A stretch of 64,000 nucleotides of DNA, taken from positions 62,001-126,000 of the forward strand of contig NZ_PZJU01000002.1 of assembly GCF_003206715.1 (NCBI RefSeq), written 5' to 3'. Each line of letters opens with the position of its first letter. The stretch's first letter is position 1. Below, in pieces: positions 15,644 through 63,924 of this stretch. Position numbers and translations under genes: made by a program. The stretch is from Salinicola peritrichatus (lineage in GTDB: Bacteria; Pseudomonadota; Gammaproteobacteria; Pseudomonadales; Halomonadaceae). Below the pieces are notes generated by a model. It was not told the origin of the DNA. It searched no databases and was given only the letters and a program-made list of their open reading frames with translations.

Positions 15644-16219
15644 TCACAATATGACGTTCGGATAACGCTCGAGGGCTTTGACGAACCGGGTCTTGTAAGA
15701 TTCGAAGGTCTCGGGCTCCTGCTTGAACGTGCGTACGATTCCCTCGCCATCGAAGCGCACCATGCTGGGTAGCCTTCCATCGCTGGGTGCCGGATGCAGC
15801 GGCCCCAGGCCGACACGCAGGCCGTTTTCGGCATCGATCCAGCGCTCGATGCCGCAACTGCGGAAAAAGGTCTCGCCCGCTTCGTCGTTGGCGGTCACCC
15901 GTAGCGGCGCTTTCCCCGCCAGTGTCTTGACCAGCTCCCGGCTGTGCCGGGTCTCGCCCGTGGCCTCCGGCGTCGACAGCATCGCCACTTCCATGGTCCT
16001 GCCGTCCACGTCGGTGGACACCAGCGCCAGACTGAGCACGTTGCGTTCATCGTCGGTCAACGCGAAAAGCCGCGCCGCCTCCTGCTCGAACAGCACGCCC
16101 AACGTACCGGCAAAGGTAATCAACGGCGTCAGACCGGCCTGCTGGCCGTAGACATTGGCGCACAACTGCGCCAGGCAGGCTTCGCGGCTCTCGGGGTTCT
16201 TGACGTGTACGACCTTCAT
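15644..16219 (-). CDS. Conserved protein of unknown function, possibly GNAT-like
   Basis: A 191-residue soluble protein with no signal peptide or membrane helix. I do not recognise the family with confidence. The arrangement of a central strand (MEVAMLSTPEATGETRHSREL) followed by RVTANDEAGETFFRSCGIERW resembles the C-terminal half of GNAT acetyltransferases, where an Asn/Tyr and a GFxx strand occur, but the acetyl-CoA loop Q/RxxGxG/A is not evident. Start at 16219 is supported by GGAGAG upstream. It is divergent from ugpB, with a 236-bp shared promoter region that includes a perfect 8-bp hairpin (16327-16347). Confidence 0.65.
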   Translation of the reverse strand: MKVVHVKNPESREACLAQLCANVYGQQAGLTPLITFAGTLGVLFEQEAARLFALTDDERNVLSLALVSTDVDGRTMEVAMLSTPEATGETRHSRELVKTLAGKAPLRVTANDEAGETFFRSCGIERWIDAENGLRVGLGPLHPAPSDGRLPSMVRFDGEGIVRTFKQEPETFESYKTRFVKALERYPNVIL

Positions 16220-16455
16220 CGGGCTCTCCAGGGTGACTTTCTAGAGTGACTTTCCACGCTAATAATGACTGCCGCGACGACGATCGACGCCGCCCGGTCA
16301 AAAGCGCGCAGCCTAGCATATTCCACCACCGGCGTACCTCGCCGGTGTCATCAATTTGCCATCATTCATCCCTAGCCTGTGGCTCGCTTCGATGCCCTGT
16401 GATTGCTCGCCAAACACACATGTCATTGTCCGTAAAAACAATCCGGAGAGCCGCA

Positions 16456-53341: not shown

Positions 53342-53719
53342 ATGCTCCTCCTTGGTTCTGGCTCAGTCAGGCAGTCTGGCACGTATAGTCCCCATGTACG
53401 ATTAACGCCTGTCGACGATCGCAGGCAAAAATCATAAGCGCAGCTAGACTATTGCAGTAATAGCGCTAGGCTTATTGACGACCAAGCCGTTAGCACGCAA
53501 TGTATTCAATGCCAACAAATCAGGGAACAGGGACCGAGGTACACCACGTTCCGTCGCCGTCGTTCGATCCCTCGGACCGTCTCGAGCGAGTGGAAAATGA
53601 TCGAGAAATCGCATCAGCGCGGTCGATTCCGTAGCTTACAAGGTCGTTTTTCAGCGCCTGCGCAGTACGAGAGTTCCATGCGGCAAGGGAATGTAGCGTG
53701 CCCTTCGCTAGGAAAGACC
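53342..53719. promoter_or_regulatory. 378-bp divergent region between the thiamine-binding gene and cfa
   Basis: No gene is seen. A short palindrome CTATT-GCAGT-AATAG (53449-53463) and a -35-like TTGACG (53475-53480) lie in an AT-richer stretch; a matching -10 is unclear. In E. coli cfa has a sigma-70 and a sigma-S promoter, and this long leader would have room for both. The frame of cfa is open from about 53597 but its upstream part is not conserved. Confidence 0.4.
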
Positions 53720-54871
53720 ATGACCAGTAATACACCGATCGCCCCCGTCGCACTGCCGAACACCCGCGCCCGCCAAGCCATTGAAAAGATGCTCGAGGGT
53801 TCCGGCGTGGCCCTCAACGGCGACCAGCCCTGGGACATCCGCGTACACCATCCCGATCTGTTCTCGCGCGTTATCCGCCAGGGCTCCATCGGCTTCGGCG
53901 AGGCCTACATGGATGGCTGGTGGGAATGCGACCGCATCGACGAGATGATTCATCGGCTGCTGCGCCACGGGCTCGGCGGCGCGGCCCATACCACCGCCGA
54001 GCGAGTGATCTACAAACTGCAGTCGAGCTTCATGAATCTGCAGAGCAAGGCCAGAGCCTACATCGTCGGCAAGGAACACTACGACTTCGGCAACGACCTG
54101 TTCACGCGCATGCTCGACGAGACCATGTGCTACTCCTGCGGCTACTGGAAAGAGGCCGAAACGCTGCACGAAGCGCAGATCGCCAAGCTCGATCTCGCCT
54201 GTCGCAAGCTCGGCCTCGAACCCGGCATGAAGGTACTCGACATCGGCTGTGGCTGGGCAAGCTTCGCCGAGCACGCGGCCCGCAAATACGGCGTCGAAGT
54301 CACCGGCATCACCATCTCCGAAGAACAGGCCAAGCTGGGTCGCGAGCGCTGCAAGGGACTGCCGGTGGAGATCATTCTCGAGGATTACCGCGAACTGACC
54401 GGCGAGTTCGACCGCATCGTCTCGATCGGCATGTTCGAGCATGTCGGCCAGCGTAACTATGACGTCTACTTCGATACCGTCACACGCCTGCTCAAACCTG
54501 GTGGTCTGTTCGTGCTGCATACCATCGGCTCGAACACCAACGAGATCAGTGTCGATCCCTGGATCAACAAATATATCTTCCCCAACGGCGTACTGCCGTC
54601 GGTCCAGCAGATCGCCGACGCCGCCGAACACAAGCTGGTGATGGAGGACTGGCAGAACTTCGGGGCCGACTACGACCGCACCTTGATGGCCTGGCAGGAA
54701 AACCTGCTCGCCCACTGGCACGAGATCGCCGACAACTACAGCGAGCGGGTCAAGCGGATGTTCCTCTACTACCTCGGCTCCTGTGCCGGCGCCTTCCGTG
54801 CCCGCGACATCCAGCTGTGGCAGGTGGTGTTCTCCAACGGCCGTGGCGGGCGCTACGACGCGCCGCGTTGA
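53720..54871 (+). CDS. cfa: Cyclopropane-fatty-acyl-phospholipid synthase
   Basis: This SAM-dependent enzyme converts unsaturated acyl chains of membrane phospholipids to cyclopropane forms, important in acid, salt and stationary-phase stress. At 383 residues it equals E. coli Cfa (382). The N-terminal domain includes SIGFGEAYMDGWWECDRIDE, followed by AKEHYDFGNDLFTRML-like DYDFGND and YSCGYWKEAETL. The SAM site is VLDIGCGWASFAEHAA, and the C-terminal RMFLYYLGSCAGAFRARDIQ is typical. ATG 53720 follows AGGAAAG. A strong terminator lies 60 bp downstream. Confidence 0.95.
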   Translation: MTSNTPIAPVALPNTRARQAIEKMLEGSGVALNGDQPWDIRVHHPDLFSRVIRQGSIGFGEAYMDGWWECDRIDEMIHRLLRHGLGGAAHTTAERVIYKLQSSFMNLQSKARAYIVGKEHYDFGNDLFTRMLDETMCYSCGYWKEAETLHEAQIAKLDLACRKLGLEPGMKVLDIGCGWASFAEHAARKYGVEVTGITISEEQAKLGRERCKGLPVEIILEDYRELTGEFDRIVSIGMFEHVGQRNYDVYFDTVTRLLKPGGLFVLHTIGSNTNEISVDPWINKYIFPNGVLPSVQQIADAAEHKLVMEDWQNFGADYDRTLMAWQENLLAHWHEIADNYSERVKRMFLYYLGSCAGAFRARDIQLWQVVFSNGRGGRYDAPR

Positions 54872-54876
54872 ATCTC

Positions 54877-54900
54877 GAGCTACGAGCTACGAGCTACGAG
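54877..54900. repeat. Heptamer array GAGCTAC x 3 directly after the cfa stop
   Basis: Three copies plus a partial fourth. It is the inverse complement of the GCTCGTA array at 55355-55375, so the two bracket the cfa-mksB spacer as a long inverted pair. Confidence 0.85.
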
Positions 54901-54930
54901 GATTATTGAAGGGTATTGCTCGAGTGGACA

Positions 54931-54965
54931 AAAGGGGCCTGCCATAGCGGCAGGCCCTTTTTCTC
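54931..54965 (+). terminator. Strong Rho-independent terminator after cfa
   Basis: The stem GGGCCTGCC/GGCAGGCCC with loop ATAGC is followed by TTTTTCT and preceded by AAAA, so it could work in both directions. Confidence 0.9.
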
Positions 54966-55075
54966 ATTGCCTCACTCCACCGCCGCGATCACGCCGGGCG
55001 CTACGATTCACCGCGCTAATTCTCGGCTGGAAATATCAAGACTCGACATGCCCGACTTCAACTTGATAACAAGCT

Positions 55076-55340
55076 CCATTTGCCAACAAATTCGAGCAGA
55101 TCAGCTTACCACTGTCGAAGTATCGACCAACCTTTTGCTCGTGAATGCGAGGGGCAAGCCCCTCGCGCTCCCCTTTTTCGACGCCACAGACGGCGAAACC
55201 CTGAACGCCAATCGCCCGCGCTCGGGTCGGCGCGAAAGGGCATCCCTGCCCCACGCGCCTCTTGCGTCATCCATGACGCAAGACCCGGCACGGGCGATGG
55301 TCGTCCAGCGCCGTCTGGAAGGCGTCAAGGGGTGGCAAAT
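55076..55340 (+). repeat. Dispersed hairpin element, copy B (related to 13310-13620 minus)
   Basis: Collinear with copy A on the opposite strand. Hairpins: GCGAGGGGC/GCCCCTCGC (55147-55166) followed by CTTTTTC, which looks like a terminator; GGGCA-TCCC-TGCCC (55238-55251); and CTTGCGTCA-TCCA-TGACGCAAG (55261-55282). The 28-bp duplication of copy A is absent here. ORFs crossing this region are not conserved with copy A and are not annotated. Confidence 0.75.
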
Positions 55341-55461
55341 TCCATAATAGTGACGCTCGTAGCTCGTAGCTCGTAGCCCACATTAGCGCGGAGAGCTGAT
55401 CCTACCCGAATCTAACCATGGGTCCGTTATCCTTAAGACCCGCCAAGGCGGGCCTTGTTGA
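55341..55461. repeat. GCTCGTA heptamer array and spacer before the SMC gene end
   Basis: Three copies of GCTCGTA stand at 55355-55375. About 60 bp of unremarkable DNA follow before the terminator of the minus-strand SMC gene. Nothing else is recognised. Confidence 0.7.
55435..55456 (-). terminator. Terminator hairpin of the SMC operon
   Basis: On the minus strand a stem GCCCGCC/GGCGGGT with loop TT(GG) is followed by CTTAAGG, six bases after the SMC stop. T-run short, moderate strength. Confidence 0.6.
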
Positions 55462-58400
55462 TCACTCCACCGCCGCCGGCGTCACATGAATCCCGAACAG
55501 GCTGGCCTCGCCGTTGCCGCGCCCGGTTTCCTCCGGCGCGACCTGGCGCCCCTCGCGTACGATGACGTGCCCGCCCTGCCCCTGCTGGCCGCCGATCACG
55601 CTGCCGACCAGGTAGGTCGGGAAGATGCTCGGATCGTTCTCGTAGTTGGGGTTGTGGATCAGACCGATCATCTGGAAGCGCCCACGGGTGTTGCGCAGCG
55701 ACTCCAGCGAATCCTGGATCAGGCGGCGATGGGAGAGCTTGGAGAACAAGCCGTCGAGCAGGATCACGCTCTCGCGACTGGCACGCGCGCGCCGCTTCTG
55801 GCTACCCGGCAGTTCGCGCAGTTCGCGCTCGATGGCGAACTCGGAGAGCTTCACCAGCCACATCAGCGAGACCGCCTCGCGCTGACCTTCGGACATATCC
55901 TCGTTGAGCGAGAACAGCCGGCCGTGCGGGCGAATGGCGTCGTGCTTAATGCGGATGGTGACGTCGCGGAACAGGCCGCGATAGATGCGCCGCCGTATCT
56001 GGCGCGTCAGCTCGTCGTCGCGGCCGCCCTTGGCTCCTTCGCCAGCCTGTTCGATGCGCCGGCGCTGCACCGCCAGGTGGGCGTCGATGTCCGCCAGCAG
56101 TTGCTGGATCAGTTCGCGCACCGCCTCGTCGGCAATCAGCTCGGCCTTGACCTCGAAATAGGCGCCGCCGTCGCTGGAACGCCGCGCCACGCGCTTGAGA
56201 ATCTCCAGGTTGCCGGCGGCATCGATGATGATCGAACTCAGGCGCTCGACCAGCGTATCCTCGATCTGCTCGCGGGAAGCATGCAGCCGCGCCACCCGCT
56301 GGCGATGCTCGTCGAGTTGGCCATCCAGTTGGCGATGCAGCCCGCGCAGCGATTCCAGCGCATCAAGGCTGACGCCTTCCAGCGTGCCCAAGCGCGCACG
56401 TTCGGTGTCGTTGAACAGCCGGCTGGCACTGGCCGCTTCGAGTGACAGCGCCAGTGCCTTTTCCCGCGCCGCCACGTCGCGCGCCTGACGTTCCCGGTTG
56501 CGCGCGCGCTCGCCGAGATTGAGACTGCCCAGCCCTTCCAGCAGCGTCTGCTGGCAGGTCTCGAACGCTTCCGCCTCGAAAGCGTCAGCGTCCTCGACAT
56601 CGAGCGACGCCGCCAGCCAGGAGCGCCATTCAGCCAGCGCCGTGTCCAGCCGCTCGGCCTCGGGGTGATCCGTCGGCCATCCCGCCCGCGCATCGGCAGT
56701 GGCGCGATCGATCCAGCCTTCGGGCAGCTGGCGCAGCACCTCGAGCCAGGCCACCGCCAGTTGGTCGGTCACGTTGAGCGCCTGCTGATGACGCGCCAGC
56801 CGGGTTTCGATCCCGTTCTGCTCGTGGACGTTGGCCTTGCGCTTGTCGCGGGTCTCCTTGAGCGCCTGCTTGAGACGGCCGATGTCGCGTTCCAGCGTGC
56901 GATTGCCGCCTTTCTCGTCGCGTACCTGCAGGTAGGCACGAATCCGCGCGAAGTCGAAATCGGCACGCCGGCTGGCCTGGGCCAGTTCGGCTTCCAGTTC
57001 GGCCTCGCGGGCCTCGGCGTCTTGCATGAACGTCGGGCCATCTTCGGCGACGAACGCCGACAACCGGCGCAGACGTTCGCGCTCGCCATCGGCGAACAAC
57101 CGGCGCAGTTGGTCGCGGCACTGCTCGCGCCGTTCGCCGAGCTCCTCGCCCTTGAGCGTGATCTCGGCGAAGCGCTCGTCGAGCTCGGCCACGTCCTCGG
57201 CCAGCGCGGCCAGGCTGGCATCGATCTCACCGAGGCGCTCGACCCCGCCCGCCGCCGCGAAGCGTTCCGCCGCCAGCCACAGGTCGCCGTGCTTCTCCAA
57301 CTCGCGCGCCGCCTGCTCGCGCTGCGGGCTCTGGCTCTCGATCCGCGCCTGTGCGGCTTCGCGCGCCTCCCGTACCGCTTCGAGCGCCGCTTCGCCGCCC
57401 TCTTCGAGGAAGCGCTGGTAATCATCGATGGACTTCAGCGCTTCCTCGCCGAGACGCGGCGTCAGCGTCTCGAGTTCGGCCTCGACGGCCTGACGCTGCG
57501 CTTCCAAGGCGGCAAGACGCACCTCGGCATCCTGTTCCAACGCTTCCTGGGCCTGCAGTGCCAGACGGAAGCGCTCGCCATGCGGATCGAGACGCTCGAT
57601 CTCCTCCTGCAACGCCTGTTGTCGCTGGCGATCGACCGCCAGCCGCTGCTGGATCTCGTCGCGCAGCACGGTGAGATAGGCGGGGTCGAGCGCCGCTTTC
57701 ACCGCCAGCGTCTCCACGCCCTGGACCGCGCCGAGCGGCAATGCGCCCCGATCGAGCGCGGCATTCAAACGGCCCGCTTCGAGCACCGGCACGCCGCAAC
57801 CGGCATCGATCAGGCATTGGGCGGCTTCGCGCGCGTGCTCCTCGCCATCGATCACCGGCGCGAACAGCTGCCCGGCGGCCTGGGCCAACCAGGCGCGCCG
57901 ACGCTCGCTGTCGGCCTCGGTCGCGGCGAGCACTTCATGCAATGGCCGGAAGGCGACTGCGCGCGCTTCCAGCAACTGCTGGGCTTCCGTCTCGGCTGCC
58001 AGGCGCGCCAGCGGATCGCCACTCAGACTGTCGAGATAGCGCTCGCGGGCCTCGAGGATGCCGGCCAGGGTTTCACGCTCGCGCAGCAGGCGCGGATAGC
58101 GTACCTTGGCATCTTTGAGCCAGGCCGCCGGCGTCTGTTCGCTGAAGTCGCGAAACGCTTCCAGCCCCCGCTGCAGCGTCTCCAGGTTCCTGGCTTGTTG
58201 CCCGAGTTGATGCAGCCTATCCTGGCATTCGCGGGACTGGCGGTAGAGGGTGTCGCGCAGATGGACCGGCGCGGCCTCGCCATGCCATTGCCGATAGCGT
58301 TCGGCGGCGTCCTCGAGCGGCGTCAGGCGTTCCAGCCGCGCGCCGGCGTCGGCCAGCTCGCGCCGCGCTTCCGCCAGCGCCTGCTCGTGCCCGGCCAGGG

Positions 58401-60357
58401 CACTCTTGCGCGCGCTCCAGAAGCCCACCGGGGAGTGCTCCGGCCACTGCTCGGAGAACGCTTGCCAGGCGTCGCGCCCTGCAGCCAGCGGTGCCAGCTC
58501 GCCCTCCAGGCGCTGGCGCTGCTCGCGCTTGCCCTGCAACGCCTCGCGGGTGGATTCGCGCTGGCCGTCGAGGGTGCGGGCCTCGGCGTCCCACTCGGCG
58601 AGCTGGGTTTCCAGGGTCTGCTGACGCTCCAGCTTGGCGTCGAGCAGTTCGTCGGGCGCGGTATCGGGATGCTCGGCAATGAATGCCGCGTACCACTGCG
58701 CCGGCTGCTTGAGCTCGCCCATGCGGCCGAGGTGCTCGGCGTGGGCGCGGCGAGCCTCGGCCAGTCGAGCCTGGGCCGCGTCGCGAGTCGCTTCCGGCGT
58801 TTCCAGTTCGGCCTCGTCGAACAGGCCTTCCGCCAGCGCCTGGGTATAGACGCTCTGGTTGTCGACGAAGTCGCGCTGGCGCGATTCGAGCTGCTCGCGC
58901 TCCTGCTCCAGGCGCTCGATCTGCTCGTCCAGCCGTTCGGCATCCAGGCGCAGCGAGCGGCGGTATTCGCGATCGGCGATCACCTCCTCGCGGAAGCGGT
59001 TGCCGTCGAGCCCTTCGAAAGCCTCGGCGGCATCGTCGAGCACGCCCAGCGCGCGGTAGCGGGCGGCATCGTCGGCGAAGGCGTGGCTGTCGGCAAGCCA
59101 GGCGCGTGCCTGCTCGAACGCCACGTGACCGAGATCCCGGGCGACGATCCAGGTCGCCTCGGGCAGATGGATCAGGCGTCGGTGTGTGTCCACCCGCGCC
59201 CCCCGCTCGGAGAGCGCCAGGCGCACGTTGCGCTCGGCCTGGCGGGTCAGCTTCGCCAGCAGCCAGGTGGAGACCCGCGGCCGTTCGGTATCGCCGATGG
59301 CCCAGGCGAAGCCCGCCACCGCCTCGCCGACTTCCTTTTCCAGCTCGGCAGCTCCGCCATCGCGATCGCCGGGCAGGCCGGGCAGCGGTGCCAGTGCCTG
59401 GCCGCCGAGCAGACGCTCGGCCTCGAGCAGCGAGGCGTCCAGCGTCGCCAGTTGATGCCGCGCCTCGAGCAGTGCTTCACCCTCCTGGTTGAGGGTGGCC
59501 AGCCGTCCGACCTTGTCGTCGGCGCGCTGCTGGTCGTTCTCGGCCTCGGCCAGACGGTGGCGCAGCTCGGTGATGCGGGTGCCGGAGTTGAGGATCACGT
59601 CCTCGATCAGTTCCTCTTCCTCGTCGGTCTCGCCACGGGTGGCGCCGGAGAGAATCTGGGGCGCCAGCACCTCGTAGAAGAACGCCTGATCGGCCTTTTC
59701 ACCGGCACGCGGCTTGATCGCGTTGAAGATCTGGCTCTTGTCGGCGCCGCCCTCCTTCTGAAACGCCGCCAGTTGCGCCAGTTCACGGCGCGAGATATGC
59801 ACGCCGACCGCTTCCAGCCACTCCTCGCGGTTATGCGCGCGGGTCGCGCCGTGGGCACGCATCAGGCTCTGGAAGTCGGCGTTGGCGTAGAGCGCCAGCT
59901 TGCCGTCGCGGGTGACGTGATGCACCGGTACGTCGGAAAGCTTGCCCGGGTAGTGGTAGAACACCAGGCCACTGCCGTCGCTGTAGCCGTACATGCCGAA
60001 TACGAAGGTCTCGCCGGCGACCTCCTCGCCGGCCACCGCCAGCATGTCGTCCTGCTGTGCTGCACCGTCCTGGGCACGGAACTCGACCCGCAGGTGGGTC
60101 CAGCTGCGCGCTTCGCCGTTGACCTTGGACGGCGAACACTTGCGCCGGGTGCGGGTCAGCAGCTGGCGATCCCGCGACAGCATGCCGATCAACGCCTCGG
60201 CCATGGTGGTCTTGCCGAAGCCGTTCTCCATGCTGATCGCGCTCGACTGCCCGCGCAGGTCGAGCAGCAGATGGCGCATCTTGGCTTCCCAGGGCGAGGC
60301 GATATCGCCGTGCTTGTTGAGCAGGTTGGCGATCTCGATGCGATTGATCACGCTCAC
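55462..60357 (-). CDS. Giant SMC-like ATPase of a MukBEF/MksBEF/Wadjet-type complex
   Basis: A 1631-residue protein with an N-terminal ATPase lobe (residues about 1-200), two very long coiled coils rich in Glu/Arg/Ala/Gln (about 240-1450) and a C-terminal ATPase lobe. The P-loop is SMENGFGKTT (residues 42-51), where the first Gly of GxxxxGK is Met. The signature is MSEGQREAV (from about 1488), and Walker B is VILLDGLFSKLS (about 1531-1542), with Gly where ABC/SMC proteins have the catalytic Glu. A His in GLIHNPNYEND is a switch candidate. MukB is about 1486 residues, JetC/MksB are shorter. The start is GTG, overlapping the stop of the KITE-like gene (GTGA). Family placement rests on architecture and the three-gene order. 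Confidence 0.8.
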   Translation of the reverse strand: MSVINRIEIANLLNKHGDIASPWEAKMRHLLLDLRGQSSAISMENGFGKTTMAEALIGMLSRDRQLLTRTRRKCSPSKVNGEARSWTHLRVEFRAQDGAAQQDDMLAVAGEEVAGETFVFGMYGYSDGSGLVFYHYPGKLSDVPVHHVTRDGKLALYANADFQSLMRAHGATRAHNREEWLEAVGVHISRRELAQLAAFQKEGGADKSQIFNAIKPRAGEKADQAFFYEVLAPQILSGATRGETDEEEELIEDVILNSGTRITELRHRLAEAENDQQRADDKVGRLATLNQEGEALLEARHQLATLDASLLEAERLLGGQALAPLPGLPGDRDGGAAELEKEVGEAVAGFAWAIGDTERPRVSTWLLAKLTRQAERNVRLALSERGARVDTHRRLIHLPEATWIVARDLGHVAFEQARAWLADSHAFADDAARYRALGVLDDAAEAFEGLDGNRFREEVIADREYRRSLRLDAERLDEQIERLEQEREQLESRQRDFVDNQSVYTQALAEGLFDEAELETPEATRDAAQARLAEARRAHAEHLGRMGELKQPAQWYAAFIAEHPDTAPDELLDAKLERQQTLETQLAEWDAEARTLDGQRESTREALQGKREQRQRLEGELAPLAAGRDAWQAFSEQWPEHSPVGFWSARKSALAGHEQALAEARRELADAGARLERLTPLEDAAERYRQWHGEAAPVHLRDTLYRQSRECQDRLHQLGQQARNLETLQRGLEAFRDFSEQTPAAWLKDAKVRYPRLLRERETLAGILEARERYLDSLSGDPLARLAAETEAQQLLEARAVAFRPLHEVLAATEADSERRRAWLAQAAGQLFAPVIDGEEHAREAAQCLIDAGCGVPVLEAGRLNAALDRGALPLGAVQGVETLAVKAALDPAYLTVLRDEIQQRLAVDRQRQQALQEEIERLDPHGERFRLALQAQEALEQDAEVRLAALEAQRQAVEAELETLTPRLGEEALKSIDDYQRFLEEGGEAALEAVREAREAAQARIESQSPQREQAARELEKHGDLWLAAERFAAAGGVERLGEIDASLAALAEDVAELDERFAEITLKGEELGERREQCRDQLRRLFADGERERLRRLSAFVAEDGPTFMQDAEAREAELEAELAQASRRADFDFARIRAYLQVRDEKGGNRTLERDIGRLKQALKETRDKRKANVHEQNGIETRLARHQQALNVTDQLAVAWLEVLRQLPEGWIDRATADARAGWPTDHPEAERLDTALAEWRSWLAASLDVEDADAFEAEAFETCQQTLLEGLGSLNLGERARNRERQARDVAAREKALALSLEAASASRLFNDTERARLGTLEGVSLDALESLRGLHRQLDGQLDEHRQRVARLHASREQIEDTLVERLSSIIIDAAGNLEILKRVARRSSDGGAYFEVKAELIADEAVRELIQQLLADIDAHLAVQRRRIEQAGEGAKGGRDDELTRQIRRRIYRGLFRDVTIRIKHDAIRPHGRLFSLNEDMSEGQREAVSLMWLVKLSEFAIERELRELPGSQKRRARASRESVILLDGLFSKLSHRRLIQDSLESLRNTRGRFQMIGLIHNPNYENDPSIFPTYLVGSVIGGQQGQGGHVIVREGRQVAPEETGRGNGEASLFGIHVTPAAVE

Positions 60358-61277
60358 CGGCGATCCTCCTCGGCGTCCGTGGATGGCGTTTCGGCGCCGT
60401 CTTCGGTCTGGGCATCATCGGCGCCGAACATGTCGGCTTCCCGTATTTGCGCCACCGGCACCTCGTCGTTCCGGGCATCGACGGCCTCCCCGGCCGGCGG
60501 TATTTCCGGGGATATCGTCTCGCCGGGCTCCCGTTCGCTCGACGTCAACTCGATCAGATGGGTCAAGTGATGGACACCGATCTGCTCGGCCTCCAGCGCG
60601 CCGAGCAGGGTCTGTTGCCAGACGTCCTCGTCGTCGGTCTCGCGCACCGCTTCGAGATGGCCCGCGCGCAGCAACAGGTCGATGAACGCCTTGACCCGGC
60701 GCGGGATGTCCTCGCCGCGCTCGTCGAGCAGCACCCGGCTGTTTTCCGGCGCCCGCTCGCCCAGGCCGCGCAGGGTCTCGAGCTGGTCGCGCACCAGCTC
60801 CACCAGTTCGCGGGTGACGAAGGTGGCCTCCTGGTAGCGGCTGACGTCCGAAAGCGCGCGATTGAGCCGGGTGTAGATCAGGGTGTGCAGCAACAGCCAC
60901 AACTGCAGATACCAGAGCGCCAGTTCGGCGCGGCTCTCCTGGCGTAGCTTGAGCGCCTCGAACACCGGCTCGCGGGTGTAGAGCGGCGGCTGTTCGAGTT
61001 CGGGATCCGGCAGTAGCGCGAAGAACCGCGAGCCCGGCGCGATGCCCGGGTAGTCGCCGGACTCGAACACCTTGAGCCGCAGCCCCTGGCCGGCGAGGAA
61101 GTCGCGCAAGGCCTCGCGCTCGCTCTCCTGGGCGTCGTCGATCAGCGCGCAGACGTCGCGCTCGGAGAGTTGGCCTTCGCGTGCCGCGCGCCGCTTGCGG
61201 CCACCGCTGGGCACGCGCTCGGCGGTACGATAGCGCAGCAGATAGGCGACGACCTCGCCCATTTCCATCATGTTCAT
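60354..61277 (-). CDS. MukE/MksE/JetB-like (KITE) subunit
   Basis: A 307-residue soluble protein with tandem winged-helix-like segments (LSERDVCALIDDAQESEREA; ARELVELVRDQLETL-like TRELVELVRDQLETLRGL; VKAFIDLLLRAGHLEAVRET) and a strongly acidic, disordered tail of about 75 residues. In Muk-type systems the KITE dimer binds the kleisin and modulates the SMC ATPase. It starts 3 bp after the kleisin-like gene and overlaps the SMC gene. Identity is inferred from position, size and helical pattern; no diagnostic motif is visible. Confidence 0.7.
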   Translation of the reverse strand: MNMMEMGEVVAYLLRYRTAERVPSGGRKRRAAREGQLSERDVCALIDDAQESEREALRDFLAGQGLRLKVFESGDYPGIAPGSRFFALLPDPELEQPPLYTREPVFEALKLRQESRAELALWYLQLWLLLHTLIYTRLNRALSDVSRYQEATFVTRELVELVRDQLETLRGLGERAPENSRVLLDERGEDIPRRVKAFIDLLLRAGHLEAVRETDDEDVWQQTLLGALEAEQIGVHHLTHLIELTSSEREPGETISPEIPPAGEAVDARNDEVPVAQIREADMFGADDAQTEDGAETPSTDAEEDRR

Positions 61278-61280
61278 GTA

Positions 61281-62738
61281 TCAGACTTCCTGTTCTTCGG
61301 CCGGTTCGCGCTGTTGTGCGGCGGTTTCGCGTAATCGTAGCGATGGCGTCACGGCCCCCTCGATACGGCGGCCGTCGGGCAGTTGGATGACGAACGGGGT
61401 ATCGTCGATGCCCACGCTCAGATGCTCATCGAGCAGTTGGGTGTCGACGAAGGTGTTGAGCAGCTGGGGCAGGCAGTCGAGGGTTTCGGCATCCGTCTCG
61501 AAATGGTGCCAGCCTTCATCGAGCGCTTCCGGCAGCGACAACGGCGCACGCCGCAGCCGCTCGCGCAGGGCCGGCCCGCGGGCCTTGAGATAGCGCGCCA
61601 GCAGCGGGTCGGCGGCCGGCGTGTCGCGGGCTTCGTCGAAGACCAGCGCGGCACCGCTGCGTTCGGCACGGCGCGTCTCCACCAGCGGCAGCAGCGGTTC
61701 GATGCGCGGCATCGACACCTGCATGCCGAGCGGCATCATGCGCGCGACCACGGCATCCCGAAGCCGCTGCGGCGGCGGTGACAGCAACAGCCGCTGGGCC
61801 AGGCCGGCGAAATCGATCACGCCCATCGACTGTATGCGCCCTTCGGCGATATCCGAGAGCAGTTCCGAGAGCCGCCGCGACAGGTTCTCGATGGCGTTGA
61901 GCACGCGACCGATGGCACCGGAAAGCATGCGCAGGTCCCACTCCTCTTCCTGGCGTTCGGCCCAGTTCTCGAAGCTTTCGATCAGGGTGGGCGTGGCAAG
62001 CTGCGAGCGGGCGCTGAGCAGCGTGTTCTGGATCGTGCTCAGCGCATTGTGGTAGTGGCGCTGGTTGTCCATCAGCGCCGACAGCTTGCCCTCGTGGGTC
62101 GGGTTCTCGCGCACCCGGCGCAGTTCCTGGGTCAAGGCGCGGATCGCCATCAGGATCTGCTGGGTGATGTCGGGCACGCGGGCGTAATCGCCACGCGAGA
62201 GCGCGGCGACGACCTTGGCCGCGTCATACTCCGAATAGAGCAGATCCTCGACCTGGCTGGCCAGCGTCACCGCCTGGCGCCCACTCGGCGTCAGGCGTAC
62301 CTGGCCGGTCTGGCCCTGCTTCTCGATCAGTGCCGTGCGCTTGGTGCTGCGACTGCCGCGAACCCCGGGATCGAACGTCTCGGCATCCCCCGACTCACCC
62401 GGTTGTCGCTCGCCCGGCTGCCACTCGCGGTAGTGAATCTCGCTCGGCGTCGCCAGCAGGTTGATGACGAAGCTCAGGTCGTCGGCGGGCAGGTCGGGGT
62501 ATTCGCCGCGCAGGTGCGCCAGGCAACGGCGCTGGGTGACGAAGGCGCTGTTGGTGGCGAAATCCACCTCGAGCAGATAATCGAGCAGCAGGCAGCCGAG
62601 ATCGAGCCAGTAGCCGTCGCGCAGCCCGCGGCGCTGTTCCTGGGTAACCTGGACGAAGGGGGAACCCGGCTCGTGGGCGCTGTCGTGAAGATCGAGCAGC
62701 CGCGTCGTCGCGACCAGCAGCTTGTTCCAGGCGGTCAT
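61281..62738 (-). CDS. MukF/MksF/JetA-like kleisin subunit
   Basis: A 485-residue, mainly helical protein; the first gene of the operon. N-terminal wHTH-like region (MTAWNKLLVATTRLLDLHDS; RDGYWLDLGCLLLDYLLEVD), a second winged segment (VRLTPSGRQAVTLASQVEDL), a central helical region (LSALMDNQRHYHNALSTIQN; EEEWDLRMLSGAIGRVLNAI) and a C-terminal domain with LPLVETRRAERSG. This matches the kleisin layout in which N- and C-terminal domains bind the SMC neck and head. ATG 62738 follows TGGAG. Divergent from the aldo/keto reductase gene. Confidence 0.72.
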   Translation of the reverse strand: MTAWNKLLVATTRLLDLHDSAHEPGSPFVQVTQEQRRGLRDGYWLDLGCLLLDYLLEVDFATNSAFVTQRRCLAHLRGEYPDLPADDLSFVINLLATPSEIHYREWQPGERQPGESGDAETFDPGVRGSRSTKRTALIEKQGQTGQVRLTPSGRQAVTLASQVEDLLYSEYDAAKVVAALSRGDYARVPDITQQILMAIRALTQELRRVRENPTHEGKLSALMDNQRHYHNALSTIQNTLLSARSQLATPTLIESFENWAERQEEEWDLRMLSGAIGRVLNAIENLSRRLSELLSDIAEGRIQSMGVIDFAGLAQRLLLSPPPQRLRDAVVARMMPLGMQVSMPRIEPLLPLVETRRAERSGAALVFDEARDTPAADPLLARYLKARGPALRERLRRAPLSLPEALDEGWHHFETDAETLDCLPQLLNTFVDTQLLDEHLSVGIDDTPFVIQLPDGRRIEGAVTPSLRLRETAAQQREPAEEQEV

Positions 62739-62937
62739 GTCGACTCCAGACGGGGAACAACCAAGGGGAAACGACGACACCCGCCGGTGCGTTCGACCGC
62801 GCAGGTGCGTTTCCTTTCCAAAGCGCCGCATTATGCCAAGGATACCCGTTCGGGTCATGGCGATTGTCGCGGTCGATGGCGAGCCGGGCTGCTATGGTGA
62901 ACAATGCCCTTCATTTACGCGTCATCGGGAGAACCCC

Positions 62938-63924
62938 ATGGATTATCGTCGCCTCGGCCGTACCGGCCTCAAAGTCTCACCGCTGTGTCTCGGCACCATG
63001 ACCTATGGCACGCCCAAATGGCGCGACTGGGTGCTGGACGAATCGCACAGCCGCCCGTTCATCCAGCAGGCGCTGGACGCCGGTATCAATTTCTTCGATA
63101 CCGCCGACATGTACTCCGACGGCGAGTCGGAACGGGTCGTGGGCAAGGCCCTGAGGGATCTCGCCCGCCGCGAGGAGGTCTTGCTGGCGACCAAGGTCTA
63201 CAACCCGACCGGCAACAAGTCGCCCAACGAACGCGGGCTGTCACGCAAGCACATTCATCACGCCATCGATGCCTCGCTCGAACGCCTGGGCATGGATTAC
63301 GTCGATCTCTACCAGACTCACCGCTGGGACTACGACACCCCGATCGAAGAGACCATGGAGGCGCTGCATGAGGTGGTCAAGGCGGGCAAGGCGCGCTATA
63401 TCGGCGCCTCCAGCATGCATGCCTGGCAGTTCGCCAAGGCGCAGCATGTCGCCGAGCGCAACGGCTGGACGAAGTTCGCGACCATGCAGCCGATGGTCAA
63501 TCTGATCTACCGCGAGGAGGAGCGCGAGATGATCCCGTTGTGCCTGGACCAGGGTGTCGGCGTGATCCCCTGGAGCCCGCTGGCCCGCGGCATTCTCGCC
63601 GGCAGCAAGCCGGTGGGCAGCGAGGGCACTACCACGCGCGCCAGGAGCGACGAGCGGATGCGCGCCTGGAAGCTGGGGCTGGAGCGGGATGCACCGGTGA
63701 TCGAAGCGCTGCAGCAGATCGCCGAGTCACGAAGCGTCTCGCCCGCCCAGATCGCACTGGCCTGGCTGCTGCAGAAACCGGGCATTACCGCGCCGATCGT
63801 CGGCGCCAGCAAGTCCCATCATCTGGACCAGGCGCTGGGCGCACTGGAGATCACGCTGACCGCGGATGAAATCGAAAAGCTGGAAGCGCACTACGTGCCG
63901 CATGAGGTCGTGGGCTTCGTCTGA
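62938..63924 (+). CDS. Aldo/keto reductase
   Basis: A 328-residue NADPH-dependent (alpha/beta)8 oxidoreductase. The domain starts MDYRRLGRTGLKVSPLCLGT. The catalytic Asp/Tyr are in FFDTADMYSDGESE, the Lys in LLATKVYNPTG and the His in YQTHRWDYDTP. The C-terminal cofactor region is GITAPIVGASKSHHLDQAL. Physiological substrate unknown. ATG 62938 follows GGGAG; the upstream open frame is not conserved. It is divergent from the SMC operon and 31 bp before phhB. Confidence 0.93.
   Translation: MDYRRLGRTGLKVSPLCLGTMTYGTPKWRDWVLDESHSRPFIQQALDAGINFFDTADMYSDGESERVVGKALRDLARREEVLLATKVYNPTGNKSPNERGLSRKHIHHAIDASLERLGMDYVDLYQTHRWDYDTPIEETMEALHEVVKAGKARYIGASSMHAWQFAKAQHVAERNGWTKFATMQPMVNLIYREEEREMIPLCLDQGVGVIPWSPLARGILAGSKPVGSEGTTTRARSDERMRAWKLGLERDAPVIEALQQIAESRSVSPAQIALAWLLQKPGITAPIVGASKSHHLDQALGALEITLTADEIEKLEAHYVPHEVVGFV

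Follow-up and report, generated by a model that had tools for sequence, protein, structure and literature searches.

The DNA analysed here, called the window throughout, is a 64,000-nucleotide stretch of Salinicola peritrichatus (contig NZ_PZJU01000002.1, positions 62,001 to 126,000), and its subject is a set of three adjoining minus-strand genes, hereafter the trio, that encode kleisin-like, KITE-like and SMC-like proteins. The kleisin-like gene (JetA/MukF-like; 61281..62738) is an open reading frame (ORF) of 485 amino acids (aa) when counted from the start kept in relatives, and an in-frame upstream ATG would extend it to 525 aa. It is followed after a 3-bp gap by the KITE-like gene (JetB/MukE-like; 60354..61277; 307 aa, with a variable acidic tail), which overlaps the SMC-like ATPase gene (55462..60357; 1631 aa) by 4 bp. 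An earlier note on this DNA had placed the three ORFs at these positions with opposite-strand genes on both flanks, and both points held; the flanking genes lie at 53597-54871 and 62722-63924, and we take them, by recognition and not by a family scan, to be cfa and an aldo/keto reductase gene. The kleisin-like and KITE-like genes were also found in relatives. Matches to all three genes were obtained in 72 of 73 related loci (L058 to L130; species representatives, many closely related), with L123 lacking the kleisin at a contig end and L074 and L112 carrying a cut kleisin, and the three genes stood in the same order in 20/20 loci of the same GTDB family. The three-gene operon is not a product of chance, since its order is kept across the family loci and the ratio of nonsynonymous to synonymous substitution (dN/dS) of the SMC gene is far below 1.

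The SMC-like protein has an N head, a coiled coil, a hinge-like conserved island, a further coiled coil and a C head, the coiled coil being predicted from the sequence and the conservation profile. Both ends of the protein are highly conserved, and so is a mid-protein region at residues 801-900, with poorly conserved stretches between; the mid-protein island, a hinge candidate at about residues 778-900 (57658..58026, minus strand as are all motifs below), gave no profile match to a slice of the MukB mid-region. The Walker A motif MENGFGKTT (residues 43-51; 60205..60231) keeps K49 in 70 of the 71 sequences with a residue there, and one relative that carries the nuclease gene described below has Arg instead. 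The ABC signature DMSEGQRE (residues 1487-1494; 55876..55899) has S1489, G1491 and Q1492 in 72/72 sequences, and the motif IGLIHNP (residues 1564-1570; 55648..55668), which we take to be the H-loop with its switch histidine, has H1568 in 72/72. At the Walker B motif VILLDGLFSKLS (residues 1531-1542; 55732..55767), which aligns with the ..DEAF.. of JetC, the catalytic glutamate is replaced by Gly1536. Glycine occupies this position in all 72 SMCs, 26 of them with a JetD-type gene and 46 without, whereas the glutamate (D-E) is present in 18/18 JetC proteins in the alignment (L153 to L155 among them; four were typed JetC1 by PADLOC, and the set includes no type III JetC). Because every SMC scored has glycine in place of this glutamate, ATP is probably hydrolysed slowly, or with another residue as the catalyst. 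Two other systems offer a comparison: a Glu-to-Gln change in Walker B is reported as general for LmuB in the part of PMC10586767 consulted, and MksB of Pseudomonas aeruginosa PA14, in the consulted part of PMC10123090, seems to be without Walker A, which makes it another odd ATPase among such SMC systems.

At 1631 aa the protein is longer than Escherichia coli MukB (1486 aa) and than the 18 JetC proteins compared (1122-1231 aa), as the earlier note had stated, and its relatives span about 1520-1670 aa. Using hhalign, the N head matched a profile of the 18 JetC N heads at 94.8% (E 5e-8), compared with 37-49% for MukB, 50% for the genome's own Smc and 11% for RecN, each of these three a single sequence, which answers in part the earlier concern that the heads might group with an unrelated family. 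The control match between JetC and MukB N heads reached 96%; given this control and the comparison of a profile with single targets, the N-head match identifies an SMC head and not which relative is nearest.

None of the three proteins had a significant match in Pfam, PADLOC or NCBIfam (best E 0.039). The PADLOC models of JetA, JetB and JetC (types I-III) returned chance-level scores only (best E 0.0054, in a relative), and searches of the PDB by sequence or profile yielded only chance, coiled-coil or P-loop matches. In hhalign the kleisin showed no link to JetA or MukF, and the KITE reached 8% with JetB and 5% with MukE. The same failure is seen between known relatives, with controls of 0.5% for JetA-MukF and 13% for JetB-MukE (the JetA and JetB sets held 13 sequences each, chosen by position and length). 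For the AlphaFold2 model of the kleisin (predicted local distance difference test, pLDDT, 71.7; predicted template modelling score, pTM, 0.37), Foldseek ranks 2, 5 and 7 were MukBEF/MukEF chains taken as MukF (E 0.06-0.15, probability 0.41-0.51), with none at E<=0.001. VIA-align gave MukF-type, MukBEF or MukEF-entry chains in its first eight rows (Z 11.3-13.1, near the level that helical bundles reach without kinship) and a Wadjet-II JetABC chain at rank 10 (Z 10.4). For the KITE model (pLDDT 70.1, pTM 0.59), Foldseek against the PDB placed MukE-length chains of MukEF/MukBEF entries at ranks 1-6 (E 1.2e-3 to 7e-3, probability 0.96-1.00, TM 0.21-0.33), again with none at E<=0.001; Muk chain identities were assigned from chain length and matched range, as the outputs name entries. 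These models, of modest confidence, suggest that the first two proteins are kleisin- and KITE-type subunits. The earlier description of a kleisin/KITE/SMC operon is thus borne out by gene order and SMC motifs, and by fold models resembling MukF and MukE at modest confidence only.

The same note had called the operon one without a nuclease subunit, and this is correct for the S. peritrichatus locus and genome and incorrect for the family. Clustering of flanking ORFs revealed a gene of 346-379 aa directly after the SMC gene, on the same strand, in some relatives. Its product scored above the Pfam JetD_C cut-off in 5/5 cases tested, matched PADLOC JetD1 in the same five (E 1.5e-10 to 7.6e-19), and aligned with JetD of L143 to L161 at 98.8% (hhalign, E 1e-16). 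Residues E215, D280 and D282 are invariant in 25 JetD-like sequences, from 25 of the 26 JetD-positive loci (L106, whose trio is identical to that of L104, was omitted, and the frameshifted L098 included). These matches identify the fourth gene as that of a predicted JetD-type TOPRIM nuclease. Of the 72 rows scored, 26 have this gene, including the two most divergent, and 46, the window among them, do not; L121 was left unscored as its contig ends 205 bp after the SMC gene. With a JetD-type gene directly downstream in 26/72 rows, the nuclease-free state looks secondary and reached many times. Of the 69 trio genomes, 20 have a full-length JetD-like gene, against none of the 132 genomes without the trio, and all 20 copies lie beside the trio, 5.7-6.1 kb from the kleisin match and on the same strand. 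In S. peritrichatus the corresponding site, 54872..55461, is empty, this 590-bp gap holding no jetD remnant detectable by tblastn (E<=1e-3). A search of the whole genome for a distant mksG/jetD, as the earlier note had proposed, gave no JetD_C match at E<=1, and so no JetD in trans. Short, weak JetD matches were seen in four further genomes. The 44-residue piece in G130 (trio present) is likely a jetD remnant; those of 31 residues each in G044 (trio present), G113 and G145 (trio absent) lie in frames of 415-442 aa and are perhaps nucleases of other Wadjet types.

The history of this gene was followed on a FastTree phylogeny of the three proteins (73 rows, without L123 for want of a kleisin; long-branch warnings attach to the deep joins). 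JetD presence requires at least 13 changes on this tree if gains are allowed, 12 of them forced by starred branches, and the four deepest rows (L129, L130, Endozoicomonas L122 and L124) are all JetD-positive. JetD distances rise with those of the trio (r 0.87, n 25, 0/5000 permutations as high), also within Halomonadaceae alone (r 0.82, n 21). Decaying copies point to loss: jetD is frameshifted near the C end in L098, lies in two pieces in L089 and survives as an N-terminal stub in L118. Six pairs with and without JetD were compared. In L104/L100 and L090/L091 the difference is an indel of almost exactly the gene, flanked in the latter pair by DNA about 95% identical on both sides; in L069/L067, 483 bp of other sequence stand in the JetD-less strain at the place of jetD; the stub is what is left in L082/L118; L092/L089 had no downstream match; and L093/L111 are more diverged.

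The trio is maintained under strong purifying selection without the nuclease. SMC dN/dS was 0.058-0.136 in 13 pairs in which both members lack JetD, 0.075-0.185 in nine pairs in which both have it and 0.068-0.158 in five mixed pairs, all hand-picked pairs that share branches and in which some longest-ORF starts lie upstream of the likely start; the window against L061 gave 0.129 at a dS of 0.78. For jetD itself the ratio was 0.20-0.31. The search for other condensins that the earlier note had suggested showed ScpA in 61/61 family genomes tested, that of S. peritrichatus included, which also has a 1239-aa frame matching both halves of SMC_N. The MukB hidden Markov model (HMM; PF04310) passed its cut-off in 0/201 family genomes, with no match in S. 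peritrichatus and short sub-cut-off matches (E<=0.001) in 17/201, and the window's SMC protein had no match to this N-terminal domain at E<=1. Since ScpA and Smc are present and MukB is not over the cut-off, the trio is accessory.

Its distribution agrees: judged by the kleisin match, 69 of 201 genomes in the GTDB family carry the trio, each at one locus, so that of the core and accessory alternatives raised earlier, the trio falls on the accessory side. The kleisin match is in two pieces in G104 and G174. Named loci come from Halomonadaceae, Oceanospirillum, Terasakiispira and Endozoicomonas. A class-level search gave matches in the genome of S. peritrichatus and two others among 369 genomes, and the SMC C head (E<=1e-5) was matched by this genome alone in thin samples of 299 phylum and 125 order genomes. 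Among viral contigs, 36 pattern matches gave 0 confirmed cases, and the kleisin had no match on plasmids. The SMC query found only two P. aeruginosa plasmid records there, of nearly equal length; the JetD query found the same two and two weak Cupriavidus matches. One of these regions (L163; 11031-13798 of NZ_MT732184.1, the 490-kb conjugative plasmid pPUV-6) is a broken member of the trio family, with a C-terminal SMC piece bearing a DGLF motif, hence glycine at the Walker B position here too, and behind it a gene with the annotation Wadjet JetD; genes for mercury resistance and of the Tn3 family are found upstream.

Among known systems, type I Wadjet (JetABCD), which we take to be the same as MksBEFG and also as EptABCD, shares the order kleisin-KITE-SMC-nuclease, the JetD-type nuclease of part of the family and the N-head profile match. 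The trio differs from Wadjet in that its own proteins match no JetA, JetB or JetC HMM, whereas the JetD-like proteins match JetD1; in its SMC length; in its D-G in place of D-E at Walker B; and in the absence of the nuclease from most trio rows. Nearness to type III Wadjet was judged by HMM scores alone. The JetC3 HMM matched 132 of 299 phylum genomes, with at most two candidates per genome scored; among the matches listed all were mid-profile and none spanned the heads, so they were taken as coiled-coil noise and rejected as true JetC. MukBEF has the gene order F-E-B and the folds to which the kleisin and KITE models bear a tentative resemblance, but the trio coexists with Smc-ScpAB, part of its family carries a nuclease, and the MukB HMM finds nothing over its cut-off there. 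MksBEF of P. aeruginosa PAO1, presumably without MksG, resembles the trio in its described make-up, as three genes beside Smc-ScpAB with no nuclease; the trio family differs in that few genomes of the class, order and phylum samples have it. Smc-ScpAB is set apart by the trio's lack of a significant Pfam match and by the separate Smc frame and ScpA of the genome. LmuB of Lamassu is likewise an SMC-like immune ATPase generally without the Walker B glutamate, but it is a Rad50-like protein of about 650 aa (PMC10586767, part consulted), and its HMM matched the trio at chance level only (E 0.63). Among the titles and abstract openings listed in a literature search, with most subscription papers and bioRxiv outside its range, none described the trio family or such serial nuclease loss.

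Taken together, we give a probability of roughly 70% to the reading that the trio family is a divergent Wadjet/Muk-class SMC complex whose S. peritrichatus copy is nuclease-free but under selection. Its placement as a new, divergent Wadjet-like SMC family is the part we hold with the most confidence. Of the three possibilities in the earlier note (a chromosomal condensin, a nuclease-free defence relative or a separate clade), which are not exclusive, the evidence supports the last, a separate clade of Wadjet-like systems divergent from the curated families, with the nuclease missing in S. peritrichatus. Mechanistically, two SMCs joined by a kleisin-KITE bridge would bind ATP and clamp DNA, and the complex would probably hold or enlarge a DNA loop. 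JetD, where present, may be recruited to cut small circular DNA, by analogy with Wadjet. In the window's lineage jetD would have been lost and the trio kept under strong constraint, which suggests that the complex is most likely a non-cutting DNA clamp or an accessory condensin beside the genome's Smc-ScpAB. Our best reading is of a rare, new family in which the nuclease has been shed again and again while a putative non-cutting, DNA-binding role is kept; on this proposed function we are evenly divided.

Several points weigh against this reading. The N-head ranking was uneven, single sequences being weaker targets than the 18-member profile, and alignment of the C head is weak (5-8%) though in register over the signature and Walker B. 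The trio profiles had no convincing match to JetA, JetB, MukE, MukF or the C heads of JetC and MukB. The fold models have the modest confidence given above, and the VIA-align rows for the KITE were mostly generic or PadR-type winged helices, with JetB-type chains at Z 7.6-7.7. As 132 of the 201 family genomes lack the trio, it does not qualify as an essential condensin. If jetD could only be lost, its history would take 28 events, compared with 13 when gains are allowed; the larger count includes weakly supported forks. Finally, the Salinicola clade has 17 rows, of which L069 alone is JetD-positive, and the JetD of L069 has a mean identity of 0.455 where 0.515 is expected (sd 0.041; pairs of similar trio identity).

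The rival that survives best, a real possibility although we would not bet on it, is that the nuclease-free trio still serves defence by trapping, condensing or silencing small circular DNA, or by calling an unlinked nuclease of another family. Such a role would fit the invariable position of full-length JetD copies beside the trio, the broken member next to an annotated JetD gene on a conjugative plasmid, and the example of LmuB as an immune ATPase with an altered Walker B. It fits less well with the neighborhoods, as clustering of neighbors (on crude longest-ORF calls) showed no gene replacing JetD in JetD-less loci, and a cfa homologue stands near the trio in 34/73 loci, within the locus DNA examined.

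It is rather unlikely that the trio is at root an MksBEF-like accessory condensin of the chromosome, with defence a side branch that arose by adding JetD. A single locus per genome, strong constraint without JetD and the neighbors in the Salinicola clade (cfa in 14/16 and the aldo/keto reductase gene in 13/16 of loci L058 to L073) agree with it, and SMC and MksBEF of P. aeruginosa both organise the chromosome, according to the consulted part of PMC7485682. Against this stand the four deepest rows, all of which carry JetD, the decaying jetD copies and the many family genomes without a trio.

A further reading, which we consider improbable, treats JetD as a cassette repeatedly gained and not repeatedly lost. 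The lower count of changes when gains are allowed, the two almost gene-exact indels, the 483 bp of other sequence at the L067 site and the lone L069 with its slightly distant JetD speak for this, but the distance correlation persists within Halomonadaceae, no full-length JetD of the trio family lies away from a trio in 201 genomes, and decay intermediates exist. The isolation of L069 and the distance of its JetD do make some gain by recombination likely, and we favor frequent jetD loss with some regain by recombination as the likely history. That the trio is a relic drifting after JetD loss is very improbable, since a broken SMC frame in one Salinicola genome (L068, with a sequencing error possible) and the two-piece kleisin match on one contig in G174 are outweighed by intact motif residues and by dN/dS no higher in the JetD-less pairs than in the JetD-positive ones.

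We suggest tentatively, at somewhat less than even odds, that the trio family represents an unrecognized SMC class whose ATPase lacks the Walker B glutamate throughout and which has switched about a dozen times, within one bacterial family, from nuclease defence to a nuclease-free but maintained DNA-organising machine, in a replay of the proposed transition from Wadjet to MksBEF/MukBEF. The retention or loss of JetD among relatives makes the step from a defence machine to a non-cutting machine testable, and close relatives that differ by almost exactly the nuclease gene (e.g., L090/L091) allow the effect of its loss to be tested in matched pairs. Named Halomonadaceae that differ in JetD include Halomonas socia (L090, with JetD) and H. 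salipaludis (L091, without), Chromohalobacter israelensis (with) and C. marismortui (without), and the Salinicola salarius strains DSM 18044 (with) and 1A01339 (without). With the glutamate absent, it becomes a question whether the usual hydrolysis chemistry is needed for an SMC complex to function and to act in immunity. Because the core proteins match no PADLOC Wadjet model, surveys built on such models would miss the core.

Some minor observations concern individual loci. In L068 (S. tamaricis F01) the longest SMC frame is confined to query residues 611-1631, a break that could be a frameshift or a sequencing error. L071 and L123 (MFB021) are two contigs of one assembly whose SMC genes have equal identity to the window (82.976%), and they may be an assembly duplicate or a real second copy. 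In the window, a non-coding stretch of several hundred bases (about 54900-55340) lies between the SMC gene and cfa; by eye it apparently recurs in L067 (S. salarius 1A01339) at about 16000-16450 in the opposite orientation and is possibly a dispersed extragenic repeat of Salinicola. On the plus strand, an open frame of 1301 aa runs antisense to the SMC gene (56665-60570), probably as a by-product of high GC content and codon bias.

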